Shown here one piece after another: positions 8,649 to 62,465 of a DNA stretch of 64,000 nucleotides; within the stretch, counting starts at the first letter, position 1; every line of letters starts with the position of its first letter. This DNA is from Oscillospiraceae bacterium (GTDB lineage: Bacteria > Bacillota > Clostridia > Oscillospirales > Oscillospiraceae): NCBI GenBank assembly GCA_902778285.1, contig CACYXC010000017.1, positions 31,346 to 95,345 on the forward strand, written 5' to 3'. The notes beneath the pieces are model-generated. The model worked only from the letters and a program-made list of their open reading frames with translations. It was not told the DNA's origin and ran no database searches. The translations under genes were made by a program, and so were the position numbers.

Positions 8649-8865
8649 GAACGCAGCATTAAGCCTCGGCGTTTGGGAGGCGGAGAAGGCGTTTCACGCG
8701 CTCTCAGGACGATGCGGCGGGTCCGCAGGCATCTGCGGATTCGCCGTTTGTTTTTGATATATGAAAACCCGTACCGCGCGGGCGGCTGATAGCCGCCCGC
8801 AGACAGAGGGAAACGAATCACGCGCGAAAAAGCAGACAACAGAGACCGCCGGAAGCGGCAAAACA
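8649..8865. other. Non-coding spacer after dpaB with GC-rich hairpins
   Basis: No credible gene. A hairpin around 8716-8750 (GGCGGGTCCGCAGG and complement-like sequence) and GCGGGCGGCTGATAGCCGCCCGC at about 8778-8800 are visible. The second palindrome is shared with 44362-44390 near the aldolase gene, so it is a dispersed repeat. Confidence 0.5.
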
Positions 8866-9065
8866 GGCAGGGAGCTTTATGCTCCCTGCCCCAAGCTGTC
8901 GACAAAGTGTCGACAGCTTGAGCGGCAAAAATGGGAACTTCTGAAAAAGCTCCCATTTTTGCACAGATTGTACCGCGAAAGGGGATTACCTCTCCCCATG
9001 CGAGTCCGACTTGTTCTGTATGGGTTTGTCTACAGTCTGAGGCAGGGAGCTTTATGCTCCCTGCC
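8866..9065 (+). mobile_element. Terminator-duplicating element, copy T1
   Basis: Two identical 25-nt hairpins (8866-8890 and 9041-9065; GGCAGGGAGC...GCTCCCTGCC) flank a 150-bp core. The core opens with CAAGCTGTCGACAAAGTGTC, itself a GTCGAC palindrome, carries an internal hairpin of the AAAATGGGAAC/GCTCCCATTTTT type, and closes with GGGTTTGTCTACAGTCTGA. The outer ends pair as imperfect terminal inverted repeats (TCAAGCTGTCGACAAAG against TCAGACTGTAGACAAAC, 13 of 17). It sits between the convergent genes dpaB and rluD, where a terminator is expected. No protein is encoded. Confidence 0.75.
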
Positions 9066-9125
9066 CGTCAGCTTGTCAAAAAAGTCCTTGCAGTCTTTTA
9101 CCACCCGCAGACCGAAAACTGAAAA

Positions 9126-32472: not shown

Positions 32473-32549
32473 GGCCACGTAGTTCAGTCGGTTAGAACGC
32501 CGGCCTGTCACGCCGGAGGTCGAGGGTTCAAGTCCCTTCGTGGTCGCCA
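32473..32549 (+). tRNA. tRNA-Asp (GTC)
   Basis: 77 nt including encoded CCA. The acceptor arms GGCCACG/CGTGGTC pair with one G-U; the anticodon arm CCGGC-CTGTCAC-GCCGG shows GTC; the T arm is GAGGG-TTCAAGT-CCCTT. Confidence 0.95.
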
Positions 32550-32581: not shown

Positions 32582-32657
<76 letters not shown>

Positions 32658-37731: not shown

Positions 37732-37781
37732 AGAGGGTATTGTTTTGTAAAAAAGCCTCATCAAGCACATCTGCAGTTCAG

Positions 37782-38008
37782 GCTCTCAGGGATCACTCCC
37801 TGAGAGCTTGAAAACTGTAGACAACCCTACACCCTGCGCGGCTATCTTGGATACGCATGGGGAGAGCGCGAGAGGGGATTGGTTATTCCCTCTCGCAGTT
37901 CAATTTCGGCGAAAACAGGAACACTTTCGAATGTTTCTGTTTTCGCCTTTCAAGCAGTCGACACTTTGTCGACTGCTTGAAAGCTCTCAGGGATCACTCC
38001 CTGAGAGC
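37782..38008 (-). mobile_element. Terminator-duplicating element, copy T2 (reverse)
   Basis: Identical 26-nt hairpins at 37782-37807 and 37983-38008 (GCTCTCAGGGATC...CCCTGAGAGC) flank a 175-bp core in reverse orientation: it begins TTGAAAACTGTAGACAACCC and ends with the AGTCGAC..GTCGACT palindrome. Internal hairpins are GCGAGAGGGGATT/TTCCCTCTCGC and GGCGAAAACAGG/CTGTTTTCGCC. Confidence 0.75.
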
Positions 38009-38046
38009 TTGTTCGTTCTGCGGTTTTCAGCCGGCAAGATGCCGGG

Positions 38047-46130: not shown

Positions 46131-46302
46131 AGCCGGGACGCCCGTCCCGGCTCAAGCTGTCGACAAAGTGTCGACAGCTTGACAATCAAAAATGAGAACT
46201 CCCCAAAAAGTTCTCATTTTTGAGTATATCAATCGCGAGAGGGAATAACCTTCGGCAGCATGGGTTTGTCTACAGTCTGAGCCGGGACGCCCGTCCCGGC
46301 TC
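46131..46302 (+). mobile_element. Terminator-duplicating element, copy T3
   Basis: 23-nt hairpins at 46131-46153 and 46280-46302 (AGCCGGGACGCCCGTCCCGGCTC) are identical. The 126-bp core begins AAGCTGTCGACAAAGTGTCG, has the AATGAGAACT/AGTTCTCATT hairpin, then GCGAGAGGGAATAACC and closes with GGGTTTGTCTACAGTCTG. It follows the ECF S gene stop by 25 bp, the position of its terminator. Confidence 0.78.
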
Positions 46303-46496: not shown

Positions 46497-46679
46497 AAGC
46501 CGGGACGGGAGTCCCGGCTTCAGCGTGTCGACAAAGTGCCGACACGCTGAAGCGGCCGATTTTAAAACCTTGGATCGGTTTAAAAATCGGCTCAGATTGA
46601 ACGTGAAGAGGGGATAACAGACCAAGCTGCTGCGCATAGGTTTGTCTACAGTCTGAAGCCGGGACGGGAGTCCCGGCTT
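46497..46679 (+). mobile_element. Terminator-duplicating element, copy T4
   Basis: 24-nt hairpins at 46497-46520 and 46656-46679 (AAGCCGGGACGGGAGTCCCG then GCTT) are identical. The 135-bp core opens with CGTGTCGACAAAGTGCCGAC and closes with AGGTTTGTCTACAGTCTG; the internal hairpin is GCCGATTTTAAAACC/GGTTTAAAAATCGGC. It lies 195 bp after T3 with a different hairpin. Confidence 0.78.
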
Positions 46680-62236: not shown

Positions 62237-62465
62237 AAGAGCTGACGGATCTCCGATCTGTCAGCTCTTCAAGCTGTCGACAAAGTGTCGACAGCTTGAA
62301 GATCAAAAAATGAGAACTCCCCAAAAAGTTCTCATTTTTGAGTATATCAAACGCGAGAGGGAATAACCTATCCCCTCTCGCGCTCTCCCCATGCGTGTCA
62401 AACTTCGGCAGCATGGGTTTGCCTACAGTCTGAAGAGCTGACGGATCCCCGATCCGTCAGCTCTT
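62237..62465 (+). mobile_element. Terminator-duplicating element, copy T5
   Basis: 33-nt hairpins at 62237-62269 and 62433-62465 (AAGAGCTGACGGAT...CAGCTCTT) match except two bases in the stem. The 163-bp core starts CAAGCTGTCGACAAAGTGTC, has AATGAGAACT/AGTTCTCATT, a GCGAGAGGGAATAACCTATC then CCCTCTCGC hairpin, and ends TGGGTTTGCCTACAGTCTG. It lies between the convergent XRE and MmcQ genes. Confidence 0.78.

Follow-up and report, generated by a model that had tools for sequence, protein, structure and literature searches.

A probable IS1182 MITE family lying between duplicated terminator hairpins in an Oscillospiraceae genome

How does a small DNA element come to lie between two copies of one and the same hairpin, when the hairpin itself changes from one insertion to the next? 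The window considered here, meaning the whole analysed stretch of 64,000 nucleotides, is part of contig C17 of a host assembly of 2.43 Mb (76 contigs, 89% complete), and the initial annotation had claimed that five of its loci share a single design. This was borne out, as all five read as a small inverted-repeat element between two copies of a locus-specific hairpin (Table 1). The two-base difference described between the hairpin copies of locus 5 (62237-62465) was also recovered, but it is not the only one, since the copies at locus 2 differ as well, by one base. The right end of the locus 2 element (37780-38010, minus strand) has decayed. The genes ending nearby encode an S4-domain pseudouridine synthase (locus 1), a trypsin-like peptidase (locus 2) and the S component of a riboflavin ECF transporter (locus 3), and locus 5 is flanked by a convergent pair consisting of an HTH/zinc-ribbon gene and a YjbR gene. 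In a DNA fold prediction the full-length locus 5 forms two flanking and four internal hairpins (z = -14), and the left end of the element yields a 14-bp stem free of mismatches and a loop of 3 nt. Two tRNA genes are found elsewhere in the window (32473-32546 and 32582-32654), and Rfam at the gathering threshold returned nothing beyond them over the whole window.

Table 1. Elements and flanking hairpin copies at the five loci of the window.
Feature	Position	Strand	Remark
Locus 1, left hairpin copy, 27 bp	8865..8891		duplicated at 9040-9066 (L058)
Locus 1, element, MITE, CA...TG, probably assembly-shortened	8892..9039	+	sequence reading and length fit
Locus 1, right hairpin copy	9040..9066		sequence reading and palindrome analysis
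Locus 2, hairpin copy, 30 bp	37780..37809		one mismatch against its partner
Locus 2, element, decayed right end	37810..37980	-	
Locus 2, second hairpin copy	37981..38010		
Locus 3, left hairpin copy, 22 bp	46131..46152		
Locus 3, element, probably assembly-shortened	46153..46279	+	
Locus 3, right hairpin copy	46280..46301		identical to left copy
Locus 4, left hairpin copy, 24 bp	46497..46520		
Locus 4, element, divergent subfamily	46521..46655	+	poor fit to full-length copies
Locus 4, right hairpin copy	46656..46679		identical to left copy
Locus 5, left hairpin copy, 33 bp	62237..62269		two differences against its partner
Locus 5, element, full length, 163 bp between duplications	62270..62432	+	
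Locus 5, right hairpin copy	62433..62465		

A search of the host genome with the element motif revealed a large family. The right-end motif GTTTGTCTACAGTCTGA, with at most three mismatches, has 148 matches genome-wide, compared with one for the reversed control pattern. The 120 own-genome loci analysed yielded 89 separate copies in which both ends are present, so that 89 of approximately 148 copies were examined; 23 additional right ends had no recognisable left end. The flanks match (score of at least 12) in 80 of the 89 copies, whereas none of 2000 re-paired flanks from different copies do (best score 7), meaning that the two flanks of a copy match each other and not those of other loci, as had been predicted. 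Among the 80 matching pairs 63 are identical, 14 have one difference, two have two (L024 and L274) and one has five (L003), the last of these amounting to a single inserted base. Mismatches between hairpin copies fall on 6 of 330 loop positions and on 17 of 1992 stem positions, five of the 17 coming from L003. The element family is real, abundant and mostly explained.

The core had originally been given a range of 126-175 bp, the lower end of which is probably not biological. Copies shorter than 158 bp number 58 of the 89 and, when fitted to a full-length copy, 56 of the 58 consist of an intact arm of 93-103 nt followed by a ragged second piece of 13-60 nt. Loci 1 and 3 of the window are among these 56, and locus 4, of the divergent subfamily, fits poorly. 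Contigs of the assembly start or stop approximately 94-99 nt inside the element, and in congeneric relatives 17 of the 18 element copies measure 163-171 bp. Taken together, the arm lengths, the similar contig breaks and the size in relatives suggest that the full element is about 164 bp long and that the short cores of the host genome, those of loci 1 and 3 included, are probably assembler joins; the breaks and the arms point to the assembler's word length. Interpretation of the length variants as deletion derivatives was rejected, given the single 93-103-nt arm in 56 of the 58 short copies and the contig breaks at a similar distance. The duplications stand despite the short cores, because the flanks still match.

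The shape of the duplicated target was derived from single-copy sites reconstructed for the 80 copies. A palindrome is present in all 80 duplications, its axis coinciding exactly with the centre of the duplication in 64 and lying within 0.5 nt of it in 70. The duplications are 18-44 bp long (mean 29) and tend to be longer where the palindrome of the single-copy site extends further (correlation r = 0.63). With the best-fit boundaries the element reads CA...TG and the duplication usually A-[stem-loop]-T, beginning with A and ending with T in 67 of the 80 copies. The stem often runs past the repeat, by up to 11 bp, so the cut is not simply made at the stem base. Next to 50 of the 80 insertions lies an A tract (left side) or a T tract (right side) of at least four in six, compared with 104 of 1600 random positions. 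Such tracts occur on the left in 36 cases and on the right in 34. Only 22 of the 80 insertions have clearly one-sided tracts (13 with T on the right and nine with A on the left), so the element does not strongly favour one orientation towards the terminator. Matching flanks in 80 of 89 copies and dyad-centred duplications in 64 of 80 support the view that the element enters terminator hairpins and doubles them in full. The accompanying statement that all copies lie at terminators is broadly right, judging by these tracts, but one copy (L096) is located within a transporter-like gene.

Among 36 congeneric genomes, the host left aside, 13 contain the MITE core, whereas none of the 23 genomes examined from elsewhere in the order does; 14 of the 18 congeneric copies display the same kind of hairpin duplication and four do not. 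The longer transposase-coding relatives that the initial annotation had proposed to look for do exist, and their products are DDE transposases of the IS1182 family, as judged from NF033551 (cut-off 270), which matches the proteins of four of five relatives at 311.7-389.7 bits and the fragment P0001 at 237 bits. At E 0.01 the transposase profile had no match among solved structures. Of 61 genomes of the genus, 21 contain a match to the IS1182 profile PF13751, the host being included in the 61 but lacking one, and some of the congeneric loci bearing PF13751 carry like ends at hairpins. The combined PF13751 and transposase search found no IS1182 transposase in the host assembly, which is 89% complete and in which repeats are prone to loss. 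A relative of the transposase of L238 occurs in 15 of the 102 genomes searched within the genus, and relatives of this transposase are also found in 360 plasmid records and 14 phage records.

From the scan of named genomes the best 80 of 301 relatives, mostly from Oscillospiraceae and other Clostridia, were used together with eight from viral contigs, and 78 of these 88 plus L136 were analysed for boundaries. Both ends could be located in 65 of these 79 IS1182 loci. Long direct repeats of 19-64 bp flank 44 of the 65 elements and are palindromic in 43; the 44 include two repeat records, as L136 is the L201 locus, and L227 and L228 are the same insertion. No repeat is seen at the other 21, three of which lack a flank, and several of which (L213, L222, L224, L226, L231, L236 and L246) have two different hairpins. 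The congeneric elements L258 and L259, whose contigs contain both ends, also carry a different hairpin on each side. A whole-hairpin repeat of 19-30 bp is present in nine of the 12 plasmid and phage loci fetched, namely those from Lactococcus, Sutcliffiella, Peribacillus, two streptococcal phages, a satellite phage, Cetobacterium, Acetoanaerobium and Enterococcus, and is absent in three. In the Cetobacterium relative (L331), after the left end comes an inverted copy of that end, resembling the terminal palindrome of the MITE. The transposase of L136 (approximately 500-1950) seems by eye to shift frame near its N-terminal part, and may be inactive or contain a sequencing error.

The MITE ends are 5'-CAAGCTGTCGACAAAG on the left and, read inwards, 5'-CAGACTGTAGACAAAC on the right. 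The congeneric IS1182 elements L260, L261, L262 and L267 start with TCAGACTGTAGACAAAG, which agrees with the right end of the MITE at 16 of 17 positions and with the left end at 14; the left end fits congeneric IS1182 ends less well, at 14 of 17 to L260 or L138. The best-matching ends, TCAGCCTGTCGACAAAG and TCAGACTGTAGACAAAA, belong to L246 from a viral contig (15 of 17 on the left and 16 of 17 on the right), yet this element is among the 21 with no repeat. Another congeneric IS1182 group (L130, L133 and L134) has different ends (about GGnGnTGTCTCAAAA). As a MITE, then, the element is too short for a transposase gene, shares terminal inverted repeats with autonomous elements (L260-L262, L267 and L246) and has a like target duplication, in 80 of 89 copies compared with 44 of 65 for the autonomous elements.

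It had been proposed that an empty site would contain a single hairpin. This holds for two autonomous relatives, but no such site was found for the MITE itself. Streptococcus phage Javan90 equals Javan87 over the compared stretch except for 1564 missing bases, which correspond to the 1538 bases of an IS1182 element and one copy of the 26-bp hairpin AACCGCTCTCTTAATCGAGGGCGGTT; exactly one copy of this hairpin is kept in Javan90. In the Lactococcus plasmid pUCCL626B the IS lies between two copies of AAAGAACCTCTTGGTTCTTT, and five of the 386 plasmid records matching this region were read. One copy of the same sequence and no IS are found at the same place in pNs15sousui29 and pLLF27D, one hairpin copy with a one-base loop difference in pNZ4000 and pAH1-3, and in the fifth record (L339) the hairpin is cut off, with other sequence beyond. 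For a S. suis phage and an Enterococcus plasmid that were also used for such searches, no record with both flanks and without the IS was present among the matches listed. The flanks of locus 5 in the window were compared with 102 genomes of the genus, where flank matches are 69-79% identical; the 16 such matches listed, 330 bases each, contain neither the element nor a hairpin of the same sequence. The empty sites of the two autonomous relatives bear directly on the idea that the flanking hairpins are carried by the mobile unit and are not target duplications. It would agree with the hairpin found at both ends of almost all intact copies, but the hairpins are locus-specific, with 0 of 2000 cross-pairs matching, and a single hairpin pre-exists at the empty sites of the two IS1182 relatives. 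For the autonomous relatives the idea is refuted by their empty sites, and overall we find it hardly credible.

DDE transposases join the 3' ends of an element to both target strands, and the stretch separating the two joins becomes duplicated. The best explanation, to which we give a probability of roughly 0.86, is that the element is a non-autonomous MITE of approximately 164 bp belonging to a terminator-targeting branch of IS1182. An IS1182-type DDE transposase, supplied in trans, would recognise the MITE ends and insert the element at hairpin-forming palindromes, mostly intrinsic terminators, and gap filling would then leave a whole stem-loop on each side. The ends, the dyad-centred direct repeats of variable length, the transposase-coding relatives with like ends and duplications, and the empty sites of two of them are seen in the sequences; we infer that this transposase moves the MITE and that its target is an extruded cruciform. 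The earlier suggestion of an origin other than cut-and-paste, or of a recombinase, was not supported, as the relatives encode IS1182 DDE transposases and the pattern is that of an ordinary insertion with inverted and direct repeats, the stagger of which follows the fold of the target. It is plausible that the insertions do no harm, since a terminator stays at each end.

Insertion at single-stranded hairpins had also been suggested; it could take place on the lagging strand, for instance, and would resemble that of IS200/IS605, whose transposase is of the HUH type. Terminators do fold as hairpins in single strands and the element itself folds strongly (z = -14). Against this stand the conserved inverted ends, the true direct repeats of the target, the DDE rather than HUH transposases of the relatives and the absence of a clear orientation bias relative to the A/T tract. 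Dyad-centred true target duplications imply joining on both strands, which makes single-strand insertion less likely; the DDE relatives and the duplications largely refute it, and we regard it as improbable. An extruded cruciform would fit better than a single-stranded hairpin.

It may be that this branch of DDE transposases targets the four-way junction of an extruded cruciform, so that DNA structure rather than protein geometry determines the stagger, and we put the odds of this at about even. Alternatively, the transposase could act as a symmetric dimer on the duplex palindrome, the spacing of the cuts varying with a preferred A/T foot and no cruciform being formed. The duplications that begin with A and end with T (67 of 80) and the many stems extending past the cut would suit such a dimer, and so would L096, where the 6-bp AGTTCT lies at the axis of a short in-gene palindrome that is hard to extrude. 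However, a dimer would have to produce staggers of 6 to 64 bp that are still dyad-centred, and the length follows the extent of the palindrome; we consider it possible but rather unlikely. Stem beyond the repeat would be explicable either by an A-preferring cut with incomplete extrusion or by a duplex-binding dimer with variable spacing. The cruciform step would be the interesting part of the mechanism. If it is true, each insertion of the MITE or its IS1182 relatives would be a natural footprint recording the extent to which a terminator palindrome had been extruded in a living cell, and cruciform formation at terminators in vivo might be readable from such insertions.

Several known systems share parts of this behaviour. 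The IS1182 relatives described above (Oscillospiraceae, Lactococcus, Streptococcus phage and others) resemble the MITE in their ends (TCAGnCTGTnGACAAA in the closest), hairpin targets and whole-hairpin repeats, but are approximately 1.5-1.8 kb long with a DDE transposase, whereas the window element has approximately 164 bp and no transposase gene. REPIN/RAYT elements depend on a Y1 (HUH) transposase and make no target duplication, which sets them apart from a MITE with direct repeats and DDE-encoding relatives. IS1272 and TnSha1, members of the IS1182 family in staphylococci, similarly use hairpin targets, often terminators, with no primary sequence consensus, but they replace or partly delete the hairpin and make no target duplication, whereas the MITE doubles it. 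Stem-loop replacement of the IS1272 type does not describe the present sites, where the hairpin occurs twice at MITE copies and once at the empty sites of relatives. In the available excerpts of Furi et al. (2016; PMC4923244), TnSha1/IS1272 is described as targeting hairpins with partial deletion and without duplication, and Siguier et al. (2015) are cited for palindromic targets of IS1182. In the corresponding portion of Wan et al. (2017; PMC5678879) IS1272 was observed to replace the stem-loop, and beside this a pathway b was drawn (Figure 13), by which the whole stem-loop would be duplicated if the ends join the 5' feet of the cruciform. Pathway b is a drawn alternative in that portion of the paper (PMC5678879), whereas here the pattern is shared by a MITE family and by numerous IS1182 elements. 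ISPsy8, ISRm22 and other IS inserting into REP sequences also have palindromic targets, some at the symmetry axis, but according to the excerpts available they split the palindrome, with repeats of 2-6 bp or none (PMC1525189), whereas the MITE keeps it whole and doubled. The IS1182 family is not uniform, since ISCaa15 of Amoebophilus, also of this family, is listed with 4-bp direct repeats in two of three copies (table in PMC3196728). A large survey, as far as its available text goes, gives ten families as over-represented between convergent genes, IS1182 among them (PMC9208149), an excess that fits terminator targeting. No relevant report was found in the accessible parts of two further papers (PMC10969869 and PMC9296519). 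Among the matches listed in a search of titles and abstract openings of open-licence PMC articles, neither whole-hairpin duplication for IS1182 nor an IS1182 MITE was reported.

Palindrome targeting by IS1182 is thus known already, and what is new is a MITE family whose target duplication follows the shape of the target. A transposase family can usually be recognised by the near-fixed length of its target duplications. ISfinder reportedly lists a wide range of repeats for IS1182. Here the repeat length goes from 18 to 64 bp and tracks the palindrome, the cut points being symmetric about its axis. The hypothetical pathway of 2017 is in this way turned into a testable behaviour that several bacterial lineages display and for which both empty and filled sites are available.

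The nine of 89 copies with non-matching flanks comprise two with different hairpins, two with the same stem and different loops, one with a 6-bp repeat and four that are decayed or wrongly paired (L046, L104, L117 and L127). Two different complete hairpins each are found at L012 (C42 5585-5729) and L022 (C4 47248-47411). One flank of L012 is 97% identical to a flank of L057 over 100 bp, and the left hairpin of L022 is 93.5% identical to that of L019 over 31 nt, so these hybrid flanks would fit recombination between copies. Elements with two different hairpins in general (L012, L022, L213, L222, L224, L226, L231, L236, L246, L258 and L259) suggest recombination or chimeric assembly. The same stem with different loops on the two sides is seen at L103 (C35 41800-41919) and at one copy in L023 (C8 17828-17992).

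The copy with the short repeat lies inside a gene (L096 440-562; G000:C28 8139-8262), between repeats of AGTTCT only, and this hexamer is at the axis of the short palindrome GGAAGTTCTTCC. A 4-bp repeat considered for this copy was dropped once the boundaries were put at CA...TG. When the element is removed and one AGTTCT kept, a stretch of 250 amino acids reads through the site without a stop. Another frame likewise has no stop over 240 amino acids, as is common in GC-rich DNA. In the 250-residue frame the piece after the element matches PF00528 (transporter permease), and the profile search found no match for the 100-residue piece before it. This open frame would be the sole view of an empty site for the MITE.

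Finally, it may be asked whether the family is mobile at all, or is a terminator-associated repeat whose hairpins arose by tandem duplication or gene conversion. The hybrid flanks of L012 and L022, with the 97% match of L012 to L057, would be compatible with such a repeat, as would the tandem arrays of L023 (C8) and L098 (C32), in which elements alternate with copies of one hairpin. The L096 copy, however, interrupts a transporter-like gene with a 6-bp repeat, and IS relatives with similar ends carry transposases; a non-mobile repeat therefore appears very improbable. With insertion by a transposase as the preferred reading, the arrays are a case of target re-use, as every insertion turns one target into two. 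A route to the approximately 150 copies is suggested by the same arithmetic, since the terminator is doubled, one is left on each side and two new targets are made. A further case of re-use, in a congeneric genome (L142), runs from a degenerate IS1182 end through a hairpin and the MITE to a second copy of that hairpin.
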